From contig NZ_CP151657.1 in the NCBI RefSeq assembly GCF_038405225.1, forward strand, positions 1,364,001-1,428,000: DNA of 64,000 nt, given 5' to 3'. This stretch comes from Arthrobacter citreus (GTDB lineage Bacteria > Actinomycetota > Actinomycetes > Actinomycetales > Micrococcaceae). Positions 12,375 through 25,973 of this stretch are shown in pieces. Positions within the stretch are counted from its first letter, which is position 1. Every line of letters starts with the position of its first letter. Under the pieces are notes generated by a model. That model ran no database searches, was not told the origin of the DNA, and was given only the letters and a program-made list of their open reading frames with translations. A program made the translations under genes and the position numbers.

Positions 12375-12393
12375 AAGTTCAGTGCTGCATTGA

Positions 12394-12422
12394 AAAGTAC
12401 TGTGATGGGCATCACTCGTCAA
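12394..12422 (-). promoter_or_regulatory. Predicted promoter of the sugar/ThuA operon
   Basis: Reading leftwards: TTGACG (12,422-12,417), 17 nt, TACTTT (12,399-12,394). The spacer itself contains a perfect palindrome GTGATG-gg-CATCAC (12,402-12,415), a second possible operator. The TTTCGAAA pair lies just downstream of the -10 box, a good place for repression. Confidence 0.5.
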
Positions 12423-12488
12423 GAGCAAACACGAAGCAATACGCGACTTCTTGACCCAAGCCCCTGCTATCCCGCACACTTCGAGGAC

Positions 12489-12525
12489 CGAAAGTTTTTC
12501 GCAAAGCGTTTTCTCGCTAAAACGC
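12489..12525 (+). promoter_or_regulatory. Inverted repeats before the LacI gene
   Basis: CGAAA-gtt-TTTCG (12,489-12,501) is a relaxed version of the TTTCGAAA-type operator, and GCGTTTT-ctcgct-AAAACGC (12,506-12,525) is a 7-bp-arm repeat ending just before the ribosome site. Together they suggest that the regulator controls its own gene. Confidence 0.4.
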
Positions 12526-12539
12526 AAAAAGGAGCCGCT

Positions 12540-13580
12540 GTGAACCGGGGACGCACCGACAAACCCACGCTGGCCAGTGTTGCCGAGCTTGCCGGCGTCT
12601 CCGTCCCGACGGTTTCGAAAGTCATCAACGGGCGCGACGACGTGGCGGCCGGCACCCGCGGACGGGTGCAGCTGGCTCTGGCCCGGCTGGGTTATGAGTC
12701 CCCGGTCCAGCGGCGGCTCCGCACCAGCGCCCCCGCCCTTGTGGACCTGGTGTTCGACGGCCTCAACACCTCCTACTCGCTGGCCATCCTGATGGGCATT
12801 ACCAACTGCGCGTCGGCGGAAAACGTTGAGGTGGTGCTCAGCACCGTCACGCCGGGGAAACTCAAGAGCACCAATCATCTGGAGTGGTCCTCACGGTTGG
12901 CTGATTCCGGCCGGCGGGGACTGATTCTTGTAACCTCCGAAGTGACCACCGAACAGCTTGAGGCGTTTGAGCGGCGGAACATCCCCGTGGTGGTCATTGA
13001 TCCGCTGAACCCGCCGCCGTCCGGCTTTGTCAGTATTGGCGCGACCAACTGGGCCGGGGGCAAGGCTGCGGTTGAGCACCTGATTGAGCTCGGCCACCGG
13101 CGGATCGGTTTTATTGGCGGCCCCGACGCCGCCGAGTGCAGCATGGCCAGGCTGCATGGATATCTGGCGGCACTGCGGGCGCACGGGATCGACGTCCGGG
13201 ATGATTACATCCTCAGCGGAAACTTCAACCTTCCCTCCGGTGTCCGGGGTGCGTCCAAGCTGTTATCGCTGGCGGAACCGCCCACCGCCATCTTTGCGGG
13301 CAGCGATCTGACCGCCCTTGGCGTACTGGATGAGGCGCGCCGCCGCGACCTGCGGGTTCCCGAAGACCTGAGTCTGGTGGGCTTTGACGGAACCGATCTG
13401 GCCGAACAGTCAGTGCCCCGGTTGACGTCGGTCAGCCAGCCCCTGCAGGAAATGGGGCGTTCAGCCCTGCGCAGCGTCCTGCGCCTGGCCAACGGTGAGG
13501 AACTGGAGTCGCTCCATGTTGAGTTTGCCACCACGCTGGTGGTGCGTGATTCCACCGCTCCCCCGGCTTCGGCGGTGTAG
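12540..13580 (+). CDS. LacI-family regulator, probably of the divergent sugar operon
   Basis: 346 residues: HTH at about residues 10-30 (TLASVAELAGVSVPTVSKVI) then NGRDDV, and a periplasmic-binding-protein-like effector domain. The VSVPTVSKVINGR helix is that of BxlR/XylR-like members that recognise CGAA-N-TTCG. The GTG start at 12,540 has AAGGAG upstream; the longer frame from 12,390 would run through the operator region and lacks a ribosome site. The position opposite the operon and the TTTCGAAA boxes between them point to local control. The perfect GTTAGCGCTAAC box on its other side probably belongs to a different regulator (48.1 kb). Confidence 0.88.
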   Translation: MNRGRTDKPTLASVAELAGVSVPTVSKVINGRDDVAAGTRGRVQLALARLGYESPVQRRLRTSAPALVDLVFDGLNTSYSLAILMGITNCASAENVEVVLSTVTPGKLKSTNHLEWSSRLADSGRRGLILVTSEVTTEQLEAFERRNIPVVVIDPLNPPPSGFVSIGATNWAGGKAAVEHLIELGHRRIGFIGGPDAAECSMARLHGYLAALRAHGIDVRDDYILSGNFNLPSGVRGASKLLSLAEPPTAIFAGSDLTALGVLDEARRRDLRVPEDLSLVGFDGTDLAEQSVPRLTSVSQPLQEMGRSALRSVLRLANGEELESLHVEFATTLVVRDSTAPPASAV

Positions 13581-18619: not shown

Positions 18620-18675
18620 GAATCCTCCGCCGGGTAGGGGCACCGGCGAGCGCCGGGCAAACCGGTGTCCAGACT

Positions 18676-18711
18676 GGAGCGCCATTCGAACGTTTGTTCG
18701 AATGGCGCTCC
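18676..18711. terminator. Bidirectional terminator, 16-bp perfect stem
   Basis: GGAGCGCCATTCGAAC, loop GTTT, GTTCGAATGGCGCTCC, followed by TTTCC. It sits between the convergent GH51 gene and the binding-protein gene, as expected for a two-way terminator. The core also happens to read TCGAAC-N4-GTTCGA, the LexA-box pattern (see findings). Confidence 0.88.
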
Positions 18712-20082: not shown

Positions 20083-22230
20083 TCAGGGCGCCGGTATCAG
20101 CCCCTCCCATTGGACGGTCCATGACTCGGGGAAACCGGGGGCATGGCCTGATGGACCGCCGTCCCAACCTGCCGCCATTAGCGCCACGGCGGCGAGCAAG
20201 CCGCCGTTGCCGGGAAGGTACACGGGAAGTGTGGAGGTCTGGCGGTTGTGCCCATTGGGGAGATGGGTGTTTTTCCCGACCGGCATCAGCAGGGAGTCCA
20301 CGGCGGTTTCTGGTTCGCCCAGACGGGCTGCCGTCATAGCGGCAACCGGATAGTCCCACCCCCAGGTACTCTTCCAATCCCAGTCACCAAGCACGTCATG
20401 CAGGGTGGCCCGCATGGTGGCGTGGTCAATAAGCTCGGTCGAGGGCAGGAACCCCAGTGCGCACAGCATGGAGGGGTGGTCCTCCCGAACGGTGAACGGT
20501 TCGACGTCCATGGCGGCATACACACCGTCCCTGACCATCGGTGCCGCCATCCCCGCAGCGACCTCCTCCCACAGCGGATCAGGCTCCCCGCCCATCCGGC
20601 GGATCCATTGGCCTGCGGCCCTGAGCGCCCATTGCCAATAGGCGAGCTCAAAGGTGGGGTTGCTGATCCGGGCGCGCAGTGACGCGTAGCTCTCCTGGGC
20701 CGGGATCAGGGGCGGACCGAGGTGGTAGCCCCCGTCAACGGGCACGGCGAAGCCTGCCATGAAATCTGCAGTGTCGCGGACAATCCCGGCATACCTGTCC
20801 AGCAGCTCCCGGGACGGCTGCGCGCGGTAAAGAAGTTCGGCCAGGTAGATGGGATGGGGCTGCTGCCAGACCAGGAACGGGCCAATGGTGCTCGGGCTCT
20901 CCCTGCCGTCCGGTGACACTTGCTTAGGCCATCTGGCGCCCGGGAAGCCCTGGCTTCGGGCCGTGGCGGTCGCGGACCCGCGGATGTCCTCATACCAGCC
21001 CATGCTCCGCTCCAACAGTTCCGGACGGTTCCACTGGGCAAAGTGGGCGCTGTGCCACCAGTGCATCTCCAGATGGAACCGGCCGCGCCAGGAGTTGCAC
21101 ACCAGCCCGGTCTCCTGGGGCGGTGTCATGCCCGAGCAGTTCACCTTGGTGAGGTACTGGGACAACACGATCCGTCGTTCAAGTTCCATGGCCCGCGGAT
21201 CCGGGGTCTCGGCAAGCTGCACTGCCGCTCCGGTCATCCAGAAGCGCTCCCAGCCCTGCCGTGAGGCGGCCATTGTGCCGGCCGCACCTGCCGGCTCCGG
21301 GTCCGCTCCGGCGTCCGTGCCACGGTGTCCTGCAGCGGGTATCCCTGCGGGGAGGAACAGGAAGGAGATTTCCAGCCTCTCGCCGGGAGTGCTGATGCGC
21401 AGCTCATGGTCCCCGGTGAGTTCGAGCGCAGCTTCGGCACTGGCAATCCGCACCCGGTATTCCGCCGCATCGAGGGTACGCTTCACAAGCCACCCGCCGT
21501 CTGTGCGCTCGACGAGCGTCCGATGGGCTCCGGGCTGTTCCCAGTCCGCCGCGTTGTGCCAGATCCCCGATCCGTAGGGAAAGGCGACGGTTAGGCCCAG
21601 GCCTCGGGCGAGCAGGGGCGAGCTAACGGTCAGGGACAGCTCGTCCCGGTCCGGATGGCATGCGGTTTCCACCGTGACCGGCTCGGCTGCGAGCGCAAAG
21701 GTGCTCGTTACTATTCCCGTCCACAGGTCCAGGCACTGCTCTGCGGCGCTCATTTCTGCTGGCTGTGGGGGCCGGGGGCCGGTGCCGTCGTCCAGGGACA
21801 GTGAGATGCGGCCGAGATCGAGCCGGTGGGGGTTGGCCCGCAGCCAGGCTTCGCCTCCGGTCAGCGCCTCACTGAACTCATCCTGCGTGCCGCCGTTGAG
21901 GTCAACGTAGCGCACCGGGCCCCGCGGGGAGCCGTATTCCACCAGGGAATCGGCAATGTCGGGGGTGTCTCCGGCTGGCGGGATGGAGTGCCAGCCCCAG
22001 GAGGACTGTGTTCCCAGGAGGGTTCCGGCATCCTTGTCACCGGGTTCTCCCACCGGATACTCATCCGGAAACGTCTGCATCCCGGTGAGGTCCAGGGTGA
22101 AGGCGATGTCTCCGTTGCCCACCGATGCGGGGCTGGTTGGATCCAGCCGGTCCTGGCGGACATTGTGGCGGCGCACCAGCTGCCTGCGGTTGATGGCCGG
22201 GGCATGCGCCCGTGATGCTTCGGGACTCAT
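20083..22230 (-). CDS. Large glycosidase, six-hairpin (alpha/alpha)6-like
   Basis: 715 residues. It begins with an N-terminal beta-sandwich-like region (RHNVRQDRLDPTSPASVGNGDIAFTLDLTG is family-like, split over residues 20-50) and continues into a helical barrel rich in Trp, with LEMHWWHSAHFAQWNRPELL (about residues 375-395) and WDWKSTWGWDYPVAA near residue 620. This layout fits six-hairpin glycosidases (GH65/GH95/GH142-like clan), but the exact family and sugar are not recognised. No signal peptide is seen. The start overlaps the GH43 stop (ATGA), so it acts together with that enzyme, probably in the cytoplasm. Confidence 0.7.
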   Translation of the reverse strand: MSPEASRAHAPAINRRQLVRRHNVRQDRLDPTSPASVGNGDIAFTLDLTGMQTFPDEYPVGEPGDKDAGTLLGTQSSWGWHSIPPAGDTPDIADSLVEYGSPRGPVRYVDLNGGTQDEFSEALTGGEAWLRANPHRLDLGRISLSLDDGTGPRPPQPAEMSAAEQCLDLWTGIVTSTFALAAEPVTVETACHPDRDELSLTVSSPLLARGLGLTVAFPYGSGIWHNAADWEQPGAHRTLVERTDGGWLVKRTLDAAEYRVRIASAEAALELTGDHELRISTPGERLEISFLFLPAGIPAAGHRGTDAGADPEPAGAAGTMAASRQGWERFWMTGAAVQLAETPDPRAMELERRIVLSQYLTKVNCSGMTPPQETGLVCNSWRGRFHLEMHWWHSAHFAQWNRPELLERSMGWYEDIRGSATATARSQGFPGARWPKQVSPDGRESPSTIGPFLVWQQPHPIYLAELLYRAQPSRELLDRYAGIVRDTADFMAGFAVPVDGGYHLGPPLIPAQESYASLRARISNPTFELAYWQWALRAAGQWIRRMGGEPDPLWEEVAAGMAAPMVRDGVYAAMDVEPFTVREDHPSMLCALGFLPSTELIDHATMRATLHDVLGDWDWKSTWGWDYPVAAMTAARLGEPETAVDSLLMPVGKNTHLPNGHNRQTSTLPVYLPGNGGLLAAVALMAAGWDGGPSGHAPGFPESWTVQWEGLIPAP

Positions 22231-23114
22231 GTGAACTGCCCGGCTGGAAGCGGCTGCAGAACGGCGCGCTCATCCGGCGTCCGGTTGGGGTGATGGAGGG
22301 TAAGGACAGGAGTCCCGTCAAACGTATCGAAAATCATGCCGTGCCCGCCGTCCTCGGGCCACACCGGATCGGGGTCCTGTGTCCAGGGCCCCTCCACGCG
22401 CCCCGACTCGGAGCGGGCCACCCCCATCGCATAACCGCTGCTGCCCATGGCCGACCACACCATGAGCAGTTCCCCGGCCGCCGTCCGGCGCAGGAAGGGG
22501 CCGTCCGTCACGTAGGCGGGGAACTTCAGCGGCTCGCGGCGCTTCAGCGGAGTGCTCCATGACGCTTCGGAGGAACTGAACAGGAAAACGGGCGGACCGG
22601 TGACTGAGCGCAGATCCGGCGACAGGCGCTGGGCATACACGGCGCCGTCATGCACCTGGACCCATTCGTGGCAGTAGATCATCCACGGTGCGCCGTCGTC
22701 GTCCACGTGGAAGGTGCCGTCCAGGCACTGCCAGTTCGCCGGTGTTACCGCTCCCGGGGACCAGCGGATGTACGGGCCCTCGGGGCGTTCGGCTGCCAGC
22801 ACATACGTTCCGCGCATGGCGCCGGGAGCCTTGAAGGTCGCGAACATGTAGTACCGGCCAAGGTGGGCATGGACCTCCGGCGCCCAGAACTCCGTGTAGC
22901 CCAGGAAGGAATCATCCGGGCGGAAGGCGGGCAGCGGCCCCTCCCACTGGTTGAGGTCCACACTGCGGTAGCAGTCGAAGCCGGTGCCGGGGCCTGACCA
23001 GATGTCCGCGTCGGTGCTGCCGAAGAGGTAATAGGCCCCCTCCGCTGCCACGGGCAGGACAAACGGATCCCGGATCTGGATGTCAGTGAGCATGCTGGTA
23101 CTGCCGATGGCCAT
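22227..23114 (-). CDS. GH43-like five-bladed beta-propeller glycosidase
   Basis: 295 residues from the ATG at 23,114 (AGGAG 5 nt upstream; the longer frame of 356 residues would run through the promoter). Seen: IRDPFVL with the likely catalytic base Asp near residue 14, EFWAPEVHAHLGRYYMF, DGTFHVDDDGAPWMIYCHEW, and VTDGPFLRRTAAGELLMVWS. In many GH43 enzymes the third acidic residue is Glu; here the motif is TDGPF, as in one branch of the family. No signal peptide. It is the first gene of the operon GH43, large glycosidase, binding protein. Confidence 0.82.
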   Translation of the reverse strand: MAIGSTSMLTDIQIRDPFVLPVAAEGAYYLFGSTDADIWSGPGTGFDCYRSVDLNQWEGPLPAFRPDDSFLGYTEFWAPEVHAHLGRYYMFATFKAPGAMRGTYVLAAERPEGPYIRWSPGAVTPANWQCLDGTFHVDDDGAPWMIYCHEWVQVHDGAVYAQRLSPDLRSVTGPPVFLFSSSEASWSTPLKRREPLKFPAYVTDGPFLRRTAAGELLMVWSAMGSSGYAMGVARSESGRVEGPWTQDPDPVWPEDGGHGMIFDTFDGTPVLTLHHPNRTPDERAVLQPLPAGQFT

Positions 23115-23136
23115 GGTTCTCCTGGATTGACTGTGT

Positions 23137-23180
23137 GAAACCGCTTTCTGAAACGTATCAATGACGTACGTCACATTCAA
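23137..23180 (-). promoter_or_regulatory. Promoter of the GH43 operon with two operators
   Basis: Reading leftwards: -35 TTGAAT (23,180-23,175), 17 nt, -10 TACGTT (23,157-23,152). The spacer holds the perfect 12-bp palindrome TGACGTACGTCA (23,162-23,173), and just downstream of the -10 lies GAAAGCGGTTTC (23,148-23,137), a cre/LacI-like half-symmetric site. Two regulators may act here. No regulator gene is adjacent. Confidence 0.55.
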
Positions 23181-23256: not shown

Positions 23257-23272
23257 TCGAACATGCGTTCGA
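23257..23272. promoter_or_regulatory. LexA-type SOS box TCGAACATGCGTTCGA
   Basis: It matches the actinobacterial LexA pattern TCGAAC-N4-GTTCGA at all twelve defined bases. It lies 98 bp before the alcohol dehydrogenase start codon and about 145 bp from the GH43 start on the other strand. A TTGACT (-35-like) is at 23,300-23,305, downstream of the box. Confidence 0.6.
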
Positions 23273-23369
23273 GATTCCGCCGCCGCAGCTTTGCCACCCT
23301 TGACTACCCGGAGCTGCGCGAGGCAGGGTAAACACAAATCATCAGCATGCTTGCTAAAAGGGGAAACCA

Positions 23370-24518
23370 ATGCGGTCAATGGTGTACCGCGGACCCTACA
23401 AGGTCCGCGTCGAAGAAAAAGACATTCCTCGGATTGAGCATCCGAATGACGCCATCGTGCGGGTTACAGCGGCGGCCATCTGCGGCTCCGACCTGCACCT
23501 CTATCACGGCATGATGCCGGACACCCGGGTCGGGACCACTTTTGGGCACGAGTTTGTCGGCGTGGTGCACGAAGTCGGTTCATCGGTGCAGAACCTGAGT
23601 GTGGGTGACCGGGTCATGGTGCCGTTCAACATCTACTGCGGATCCTGCTGGTTCTGCACCCGGGGCCTGTACTCCAACTGCCACAACGTCAACCCGAATG
23701 CCACAGCCGTGGGCGGCATCTACGGCTACTCCCACACCTGCGGCGGGTACGACGGCGGGCAGGCGGAGTTTGTCCGTGTTCCCTTTGCCGACGTCGGTCC
23801 CTCCATCATTCCGGACTGGATGGATGAGGAGGACGCAGTCCTGCTGACCGACGCCCTCGCCACCGGATACTTCGGCGCGCAGCTCGGTGACATCCGCGAG
23901 GGAGACACCGTCATCGTGTTCGGAGCGGGCCCCGTGGGGCTCTATGCTGCCGCTTCCTCCTGGCTGATGGGGGCGGGCCGGGTCATTGTGGTGGACCACT
24001 TGGACTACCGGCTGGAGAAAGCCAGGTCCTTTGCCCACGCAGAAACGTGGAACTTTGCCGAGTACGAGGACATTGTGGTGGAAATGAAAAAAACCACCGA
24101 CTATCTCGGGGCGGACGTTGCCATTGACGCGGCCGGGGCGGAGGCGGACGGGAGCTTTATCCAAAACGTCACGGCCGCGCAGCTCAAGCTGCAGGGCGGG
24201 TCCCCGGTGGCGCTGAACTGGGCCATTGATTCAGTCCGTAAAGCGGGAACCGTGTCGGTTGTGGGCGCGTACGGCCCCATCTTCAGCGCCGTGAAGTTTG
24301 GCGATGCCCTCAACAAGGGCCTGACGCTTCAAATGAACCAGTGTCCGGTCAAGCGCCAGTGGCCCCGGCTCTTTGAACACATCCGCAACGGCTACCTCAG
24401 GCCCAGCGACATCGTGACGCACCGGATCCCACTGGAGCACATCGCCGAGGGCTATCACATGTTCTCCGCCAAGCTCGATGACTGCATCAAAACCCTGGTC
24501 ATCCCCGAAGCGTCCTGA
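23370..24518 (+). CDS. Zinc-dependent alcohol dehydrogenase, formaldehyde-dehydrogenase-like
   Basis: 382 residues of the medium-chain dehydrogenase family. Catalytic zinc ligands sit in ICGSDLHLYHG and GHEFVGVVHEVG; the structural zinc loop has CGSCWFC plus a Cys at SNC; the Rossmann motif is VFGAGPVGLYAA (about residue 190). The extra residues and pattern match the glutathione-independent formaldehyde dehydrogenase/threonine dehydrogenase-like branch, of which many members have unknown substrates. AAAAGGGG precedes the ATG. It is followed after 57 bp by an unknown gene on the same strand, and a LexA-type box lies upstream, so a role under DNA-damage or aldehyde stress is possible. Confidence 0.88.
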   Translation: MRSMVYRGPYKVRVEEKDIPRIEHPNDAIVRVTAAAICGSDLHLYHGMMPDTRVGTTFGHEFVGVVHEVGSSVQNLSVGDRVMVPFNIYCGSCWFCTRGLYSNCHNVNPNATAVGGIYGYSHTCGGYDGGQAEFVRVPFADVGPSIIPDWMDEEDAVLLTDALATGYFGAQLGDIREGDTVIVFGAGPVGLYAAASSWLMGAGRVIVVDHLDYRLEKARSFAHAETWNFAEYEDIVVEMKKTTDYLGADVAIDAAGAEADGSFIQNVTAAQLKLQGGSPVALNWAIDSVRKAGTVSVVGAYGPIFSAVKFGDALNKGLTLQMNQCPVKRQWPRLFEHIRNGYLRPSDIVTHRIPLEHIAEGYHMFSAKLDDCIKTLVIPEAS

Positions 24519-24575: not shown

Positions 24576-25163
24576 ATGGCAGAAACACCCAGCACTCCCT
24601 ATGTGGCAGGAGTGCAAAAGCGCAGGTTCACCAATGAGGAACTGCGGGCGCGCATCCCCGGGTGGGGAGTGGATCTGGACCCCGCGGACAGGCCTTCCGT
24701 CCCAAAGATGCAGACTGATGTGGACACGGGCGCCCACTGGGATTTCCCGGAACGCCAGCAGCAGAAGCAGCCACGCGAGCATTCCATTGAGCATCAGTTC
24801 GTGACCCCGGTGTTCGGGACCTCGGTTCCGTTAAAGGGGGTGTCGGGAGCGATGCGCCGCTATGCCTACAAGTACAGCGAGGCCCGGGCGGCGCACTGGC
24901 TGATTTTGATCGCCGCGGACAGGGTCGACGCCGGCGGCAGCCACCTGCGTTCATTCCTCACCCTCCGGCCCGATAATCCGGTCACCGAAACCGGCGCCGT
25001 CACCGAGTTCACCCGACACGGCTTTTCCTCCCGGTTCGGCAGGAAGCGGGCAGACCTCAAGGAACAGGCGCTGGTGCCGGTGTTTGCCGCGGGGCCCTGG
25101 ATCCTGGCCGGAGGCGCCGTCTTCGCGGCGGTCCGCAGGCTTGTGCGGGCGGCCCGAACCTGA
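24576..25163 (+). CDS. Conserved-looking protein of unknown function with C-terminal membrane segment
   Basis: 195 residues from the ATG at 24,576 (GAGGA upstream). The first 80 residues are polar and Pro/Gln/Lys-rich (RFTNEELRARIPGWGVDLDP); the middle (RYAYKYSEARAAHWLILIAADRVDA) looks like a folded region; a hydrophobic stretch LVPVFAAGPWILAGGAVFAA near residues 165-185 probably spans or touches the membrane, followed by Arg-rich residues. I do not recognise a family. It forms a probable operon with the alcohol dehydrogenase and may be its membrane partner. That is inference from position only. Confidence 0.75.
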   Translation: MAETPSTPYVAGVQKRRFTNEELRARIPGWGVDLDPADRPSVPKMQTDVDTGAHWDFPERQQQKQPREHSIEHQFVTPVFGTSVPLKGVSGAMRRYAYKYSEARAAHWLILIAADRVDAGGSHLRSFLTLRPDNPVTETGAVTEFTRHGFSSRFGRKRADLKEQALVPVFAAGPWILAGGAVFAAVRRLVRAART

Positions 25164-25183: not shown

Positions 25184-25735
25184 CTAGGCGGCCCGACCCA
25201 GATCCCGCAGCAGTTCCGCCCGCACCTGTGCCGGGTCCGCCCCCAGCCCCCGGAGCGTGTGCGCCGCCGTGCCGTTATTCCCCGCCAGCAGGCCCAGCAG
25301 GAGATGTTCCGGGCCAATGGTCTTTGCCCCCAGGGCCAGGGTCTCCCGCAGCGACTGCGTGAGCGCGTCCTTTGCCGGGGAGGTGAAGGGAATGTGCCCT
25401 CCGCCGCGGCCCTTGAATAATCCCCTGGCCCGCCGGGGCTGATCCAGGGCCCCGGGGCCGAAGCTTGCCTCCGCGCGCTCGCGGACGGCATCGAGGTCGA
25501 CGCCGATGGCCTCCAGCGCCTGCGCGTCCGCACTGCCGAGCCCCTGGGCGCGCCGGGCCACCGCCCCGCCGTCGATCCCGAGGCGGTTCAGGACCCGGAC
25601 GGCAGGGTTGTCACCGCTGGCCAGGACTCCAAGCAGGAGATGGTCCGCCGTGATTTCGCTGTCCCCCAGTAAGCGGGCCTGTTCCTGTGCCTCGATGATC
25701 ACGGTGCGGGCTGATTCCGAAAAGCGTTCAAACAT
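25184..25735 (-). CDS. Stand-alone Clp N-terminal domain protein
   Basis: 183 residues, two Clp_N repeats (first from FERFSESARTVIIEAQEQAR, second around HIPFTSPAKDALTQSLRETL and GPEHLLLGLLAGNNGTAA). In ClpA/ClpC these repeats bind adaptors or phospho-arginine substrates; here there is no ATPase module, so it may act as a substrate-recruiting or decoy protein for ClpC. The ATG at 25,735 is used because MFERFSESAR is the normal domain start. It overlaps the upstream HTH gene by 8 bp, a pairing that suggests one functional unit. Confidence 0.85.
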   Translation of the reverse strand: MFERFSESARTVIIEAQEQARLLGDSEITADHLLLGVLASGDNPAVRVLNRLGIDGGAVARRAQGLGSADAQALEAIGVDLDAVRERAEASFGPGALDQPRRARGLFKGRGGGHIPFTSPAKDALTQSLRETLALGAKTIGPEHLLLGLLAGNNGTAAHTLRGLGADPAQVRAELLRDLGRAA

Positions 25736-25973
25736 TTCTGTCTCCCTTGTCCGCGGAAGCGGATATCCGCCCCGCATGTTTTTTGTGCACTGCCTGTTTG
25801 GATACTCCGACCGCAGCGGCGATCTCTGCCCAGGACCATCCGAGCTTCCGTGCGTTCTGCACCTGCAAAAACTCCAGCCGGTCCACCAGCCGCCGCAGCG
25901 CGGCCACAGCGCGCAGTCCGACGGCGGGATCGTTGCTCGTGCCCTCGCCAATAAGGTTCTGTTCAGCGTTCAT
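25728..25973 (-). CDS. Small HTH protein paired with the Clp-N protein
   Basis: 81 residues. The second half, ARKLGWSWAEIAAAVGVSKQAVHKKHAGR, is a helix-turn-helix of the sigma-70 region 4/MerR-like type; the first half, VAALRRLVDRLEFLQVQNAR, is a long helix. It probably binds DNA, perhaps its own promoter. It overlaps the Clp-N gene by 8 bp and is divergent from the ATPase gene 93 bp away. Confidence 0.8.
   Translation of the reverse strand: MNAEQNLIGEGTSNDPAVGLRAVAALRRLVDRLEFLQVQNARKLGWSWAEIAAAVGVSKQAVHKKHAGRISASADKGDRNV

Follow-up and report, generated by a model that had tools for sequence, protein, structure and literature searches.

A predicted LexA operator upstream of a zinc-type alcohol dehydrogenase gene in Arthrobacter citreus

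The LexA regulons of Streptomyces and Mycobacterium and the SigF regulon of Mycobacterium smegmatis are the described systems closest to the locus reported here. In Streptomyces venezuelae the alcohol dehydrogenase gene vnz_22770 is recorded as a ChIP target of LexA, with a box at -105, and its RNA rises 26.7-fold under mitomycin C; the targets named in the same account also include a radical SAM protein, dnaE2, recA and lexA (PMC9380542). The mycobacterial SOS box consensus is given as TCGAAC-N4-GTTCGA (PMC4181829) and, for M. tuberculosis, in the extended form MKWMTCGAAMRYWTGTTCGA, whose 16-bp part agrees with TCGAACGCATGTTCGA on the minus strand; the targets listed for that regulon, namely HNH/13E12 proteins, dnaE2 and lexA, are of the same kinds as those described below (PMC4181829, PMC8151990), and the term 'alcohol dehydrogenase' is absent from the main text of the latter paper. 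For M. smegmatis, the SigF consensus is reported as GTTT-N14-19-GGGTA (PMC4694148), with a similar one in PMC7693655. Loss of sigF is listed as lowering MSMEG_6616, annotated as an S-(hydroxymethyl)glutathione dehydrogenase, and its hypothetical neighbour MSMEG_6615 by some 5 log2 units or more, the two having one common GTTT-N15-GGGTA site 32 bp from the start (PMC4694148). Judging the others by title or by the start of the abstract, the S. venezuelae paper was the only one found on LexA and alcohol or formaldehyde dehydrogenases; no title on an Arthrobacter LexA regulon was found, nor any paper linking SigF to a zinc-dependent alcohol dehydrogenase.

We report the analysis of a stretch of 64,000 nucleotides of the Arthrobacter citreus genome (the window), in which a 16-bp perfect dyad with an alternating RYRY centre, TCGAACATGCGTTCGA, lies upstream of a gene for such a dehydrogenase (Table 1). 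As would be expected of an operator in a LexA regulon, all 12 defined bases of TCGAAC-N4-GTTCGA agree with the box, just as an earlier note on this DNA had claimed; the same note had placed it 98 bp upstream of the gene, correctly as to the side, the measured gap to the ATG being 97 bp. The note had also called DNA-damage control of an enzyme of this kind unusual, a view that loses force in light of what is reported of vnz_22770 (PMC9380542). The box of that gene is a poor one (CCGGACACCGGGAC) and the window box a better one; the two genes are likened by annotation. We predict that the window box is a genuine LexA operator that gives the dehydrogenase and its downstream partner an SOS-inducible component, a reading to which we assign a probability of about 0.55. 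That the palindrome is a LexA operator is itself the safer part of the prediction, and the LexA-type box proposed in the earlier note is very probably one used by this organism.

Table 1. Features of the locus, numbered from the first letter of the window
Feature	Position	Strand	Remarks
Candidate SOS box, TCGAACATGCGTTCGA	23257..23272		
Zinc-type medium-chain alcohol dehydrogenase, 382 aa	23370..24518	+	PF08240 91.4 bits, PF00107 53.9 bits
Partner protein, 195 aa, no known family	24576..25163	+	helix predicted at 161-194
-35 element TTGACT of the dehydrogenase promoter (inferred)	23300..23305	+	motif in near relatives
-10 element CAGGGT (inferred)	23324..23329	+	18-bp spacer; motif in near relatives
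CATCAGCATGCTTGC	23340..23354	+	between promoter and start codon; kept in near relatives (by eye)
GH43 glycoside hydrolase gene, divergent	22227..23114	-	PF04616 114.5 bits; start by eye
GH43 promoter TTGAAT-N17-TACGTT (inferred)	23152..23180	-	stretch mostly kept in A. gandavensis
36-bp perfect dyad, resembling a terminator and excluded from the LexA sites	18676..18711		second exact SOS-box match (18686-18701) as core

The genome has the machinery that such control would need to draw upon, and both of its central genes bear boxes of their own: lexA (225 bits, over the cut-off) has two upstream, TCGAAACTGTGTTCGA and TCGAACAAATGTTTGA, and recA (560 bits, over the cut-off) has TCGAATATCTGTTCGG, which begins about 180 bp upstream. 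None of these three agrees with the consensus as well as the candidate does. Boxes also stand before an SRAP gene (TAGAACACATATTCGA) and a DUF6504 gene (TCGAACATACGTTCTA); next after the latter comes a PHP/DNA polymerase III alpha ORF, which we read as a DnaE2-type gene. The exact form TCGAACNNNNGTTCGA occurs three times in the 3.88 Mb, single-contig genome, once before a DUF222/HNH gene (1717009), once as the candidate and once in the core of the 36-bp hairpin dyad; the tighter class TMGAACRYRYGTTCKA (TMGAAC-RYRY-GTTCKA) occurs four times, against none for the control. With a scoring matrix built from six SOS boxes of this genome, which themselves score 20.8-26.7, the candidate scores 23.15, making it the top site of the window, and no site in five random genomes of equal size reached this score.

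The second exact match in the window is instructive, as its matrix score of 22.65 ranks directly behind that of the candidate. It forms the core of a dyad that lies between convergent arabinofuranosidase and solute-binding-protein genes and would fold into a hairpin of -33 kcal/mol, and on these grounds it was rejected as a LexA site; a terminator scan made no call there for want of a T run, so that the dyad is terminator-like at most. The matrix cannot separate this site from the candidate, and it is their surroundings that separate them. A bare match to the consensus therefore proves nothing, and TTCGAA dyads evidently arise for other reasons as well. At the corresponding place A. gandavensis, the closest named relative, has a different hairpin.

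What makes LexA binding at the candidate likely is the enrichment of its class across the genus, together with the genes that stand behind the members of that class. Among 29 genus genomes, TMGAACNNNNGTTCKA occurs 170 times and its reversed control 49 times; with the RYRY centre fixed (TMGAAC-RYRY-GTTCKA) there are 150 against 1, though these 150 sites are not independent, some of the genomes being near-duplicates (G008 and G009, like G019 and G020, have equal counts). The RYRY class was set post hoc, after the list of TMGAACNNNNGTTCKA sites had been viewed, in which a centre of alternating purines and pyrimidines is typical of most sites ahead of SOS genes; the candidate itself did not prompt it. 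We retrieved 40 sites, comprising, for 11 of the 29 genomes, every TMGAACNNNNGTTCKA site apart from that of the A. gandavensis dehydrogenase, which was already at hand, and joined to them three loci of the window's own genome (L081, L082 and L083). Gene families were assigned by a profile scan on representatives and extended to the remaining sites by tblastn. With the candidate excluded, 30 of 36 sites with an RYRY centre have an SOS-type gene within about 400 bp: a radical SAM gene of the Rv2578c type in 10 cases, DUF222 in 9, SRAP in 7, DUF6504 in 3 and a UmuD-type peptidase in 1. The other six comprise two ambiguous cases (L230, with a DUF222 match 820 bp away, and L246, with a 38% match to DUF6504), three sites inside a metallo-beta-lactamase-fold gene (L225, L241 and L083) and one elsewhere (L254). 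None of the seven retrieved sites with a different centre lies ahead of an SOS gene. In A. gandavensis the identical 16-mer is found about 150 bp before a DUF222/HNH gene, the product of which is 83% identical to the DUF222 protein of the window's genome, whose own box is TCGAACATGTGTTCGA.

The metallo-beta-lactamase-fold gene contains an SOS-box-like dyad of variable centre near its 3' end in four genomes (L083, at 1238050 of the window's own genome, L225, L238 and L241). Lying in coding sequence, these boxes were not counted as regulatory, and they probably reflect constraint on the protein.

Both the ADH_N and the ADH_zinc_N domains of the dehydrogenase exceed their cut-offs, placing it among the zinc-type medium-chain dehydrogenases, and it has Cys38 and Cys90/93/96/104, which we take to be zinc ligands. 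The earlier note had described the gene as formaldehyde-dehydrogenase-like, which the more specific comparisons do not favour: the enzyme reaches 182.3 bits where the cut-off of TIGR02819 (glutathione-independent formaldehyde dehydrogenase) lies at 636.95, and 122.7 bits where that of TIGR03451 (S-(hydroxymethyl)mycothiol dehydrogenase) lies at 512.9, and the nearest solved structure is the alcohol dehydrogenase 4cpd (225 bits), with the formaldehyde dehydrogenases 4jlw (159.9 bits) and 1kol (158.8 bits) behind it. We infer that the substrate is an alcohol or an aldehyde.

The gene that follows was described as unknown in the earlier note, and indeed neither Pfam nor NCBIfam yields a match to its product at E 0.001. 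When 41 sequences, picked from 68, are aligned, 46 positions are invariant, and the best Pfam match across these 41 sequences has an E value of 0.0067; the best PDB match stands at E 0.15, which we do not regard as a relative. The structure model is poor (mean pLDDT 62.3, pTM 0.37) apart from predicting the helix given in Table 1. From 163 loci submitted, 15 duplicates were removed to leave 148 distinct loci across the actinobacteria, picked by dehydrogenase similarity of at least 74% identity, so that remote relatives fall outside the sample; matches from wider searches (a Kitasatospora-labelled group and the class sample) entered only where given as loci. The partner gene lies downstream on the same strand in 147 of the 148. 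In the remaining one (L122, of genome G022) the dehydrogenase coding sequence is spread across more than one reading frame and the partner, intact, is still downstream, which may reflect decay or an assembly error. When 394 genomes sampled evenly from the class were searched, 32 had the dehydrogenase (E 1e-120); the partner (E 1e-10) turned up in those 32 and in no others, and G631 and G726 each have both genes in duplicate. This strict pairing is a separate lead on a stress enzyme. We suggest that the partner may tether or serve the enzyme. All 32 genomes are of about 6 Mb or less, which, so far as the sample held large genomes, argues against a general presence in Streptomyces; no recognisable Streptomyces orthologue appeared in the class sample or around the Kitasatospora-labelled locus (50 of 401 genomes matching at E 1e-150).

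Elsewhere the pair frequently stands behind a promoter of the SigF type. The motif GTTT-N14-17-GGGTA lies at most 150 bp from the start in 27 of the 148 loci and in none on the reverse strand; among 80 named loci it occurs in 13, against a mean of 0.075 and a maximum of 2 after shuffling. In a Mycolicibacterium locus (L062) such a site ends 30 bp before the orthologue of the window gene, and the layout of MSMEG_6616-6615, as described in PMC4694148, suggests that these are the same pair, a comparison of arrangement rather than of sequence; MSMEG_0671-0672 are a second, less clear candidate, the latter being listed there with a site of its own. By its distribution over the same 32 of 394 genomes and its frequent SigF-type promoters, the pair appears to be basically a stress gene pair. 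The genus departs from the M. smegmatis pattern, for none of its 23 distinct loci, the window included, has a SigF or SigB site of this form, and the nearest relatives of the window gene (8 of the 23) have instead a promoter of the form CCTTGAC-N17-20-NANNNT.

Most orthologues of the gene lack the box. The dehydrogenase has an orthologue in 24 of the 29 genus genomes, and a GAAC-N4-GTTC dyad lies within 250 bp of the gene in two of these, namely the window genome and A. gandavensis, so that the retention among relatives expected of a regulon member is confined to a single pair; the count remains the same two over all 148 distinct loci, with one further locus (L147) within two mismatches of the box. 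The general role of the gene can accordingly not be read from the box, as the earlier note had done in proposing detoxification; a stress or detoxification role is nevertheless plausible, the SigF-type promoters of the orthologues pointing that way. In A. gandavensis, whose dehydrogenase is 98% identical and whose DNA is 84% identical over 8.7 kb, the dyad is TAGAACACTTGTTCTA, at -111 as compared with -113 in the window. The intergenic alignment retains the promoters and the stretch next to the start, and the flanks of the dyad have diverged. This dyad has an untypical ACTT centre and is embedded in one of 26 bp, which is more than LexA needs, and its score was matched in random genomes 0.2 times on average. 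The half-sites TAGAAC/GTTCTA occur in TAGAACACATGTTCTA ahead of a radical SAM gene in G006, so that an SOS box can evidently tolerate the outer change. A third such dyad, TAGAACAAGTGTTCGA at -443 in G006, follows directly on a different gene and is separated from the dehydrogenase by the decayed remnant of a transporter-like sequence (by eye), and it was set aside as lending no support. In G006, TCGAACACTTGTTCTA (L237, 1301-1316) stands 428 bp upstream of the dehydrogenase, with an ACTT centre like that of the A. gandavensis site.

On the reading that we prefer, the LexA operator would be confined to the lineage of the window genome and A. gandavensis. In the undamaged cell, a LexA dimer would sit just upstream of the TTGACT/CAGGGT promoter and lower the transcription of the dehydrogenase and its partner; upon DNA damage, RecA-stimulated cleavage would release LexA, and a stress pair otherwise on a house-keeping-type promoter would thereby gain an SOS-inducible component. 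LexA binding at the box, and likewise the direction and size of its effect, are predictions from sequence. It is the distance of 27 bp between the end of the box and the inferred -35 element, together with the restriction to one lineage, that holds the probability of SOS-inducibility to the figure given above. The promoter itself drew no call in a strict sigma-70 scan. The candidate box does not overlap it, in contrast to the recA and DUF222 boxes of this genome, which by eye overlap their promoters; this speaks against the preferred reading.

This same geometry gives the strongest competing account its footing: LexA may bind the box without useful control of the dehydrogenase, as an orphan operator too far upstream of the -35 element to block it. 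We hold this to be somewhat unlikely. The promoter scan found no second promoter across the box; the box is present in two species only, and for S. venezuelae 498 LexA peaks are reported as against 175 sites tied to altered expression (PMC9380542). Against it stands the position of the dyad, which is held in A. gandavensis despite the diverged flanks. The surroundings of the box raise a further explanation, which we judge to be decidedly unlikely, namely that the dyad resembles a LexA site by coincidence and either serves a different regulator as its operator or is a hairpin element bordering the GH43/solute-binding-protein segment. This segment is next door in both the window genome and A. 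gandavensis, and the box falls within the stretch that the two have in common; G022, with a dehydrogenase 96-97% identical, lacks both it and the box, its alignment breaking at 18670 and 23340; the opposite edge of the segment also has an exact-match dyad, and the dyad of A. gandavensis extends over 26 bp. Yet the hairpins at the left edge are unlike in the two species, and unlike the right-edge dyads as well (by eye), the window dyad is no longer than the 16 bp that a LexA site comprises, and the enrichment of 150 against 1 counts against coincidence.

The presence of GH43 also allows that LexA controls this divergent gene and not the dehydrogenase, which seems very improbable even though, among 24 genus loci with 1.5 kb flanks, the two with an adjacent GH43 gene are the two with the box. 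The box is 76 bp from the inferred GH43 promoter and closer to that of the dehydrogenase, and the former has a LacI-type dyad of its own, GAAACCGCTTTC, on its downstream side near 23130-23150 (by eye). The gene for a regulator of the LacI family lies at 12390-13580, in the sugar cluster of GH43.

Returning to SOS control of the dehydrogenase pair, the window case looks like a newly predicted member of the LexA regulon and not like control of a novel type, since it is a local addition common to one close relative only. If true, it would be a clear instance of regulon rewiring, in which a stress pair that elsewhere is often of the SigF type has gained a LexA operator in one lineage, with an upstream region that differs from those of near relatives. 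A fuller version, in which an enzyme-partner module that is elsewhere often part of the general stress response has been rewired to SOS in one Arthrobacter lineage, with a reactive alcohol or aldehyde substrate tied to DNA damage and a partner that is perhaps membrane-tethered, is speculative and we think it unlikely to hold in all its parts; the induction of the E. coli SOS regulon by methylglyoxal, as reported in PMC3739934, would fit a link between aldehydes and DNA damage.

Two further features of the locus may be recorded. The sequence CATCAGCATGCTTGC is possibly another operator, and TTACTAAGTCTGCTTA-like sequences are seen in the promoters of more distant members of the genus (by eye). 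Convergent to the pair, at 25187-25973, lie genes for a protein with a Clp N-terminal domain and for a small protein with a weak, sub-cut-off helix-turn-helix match.
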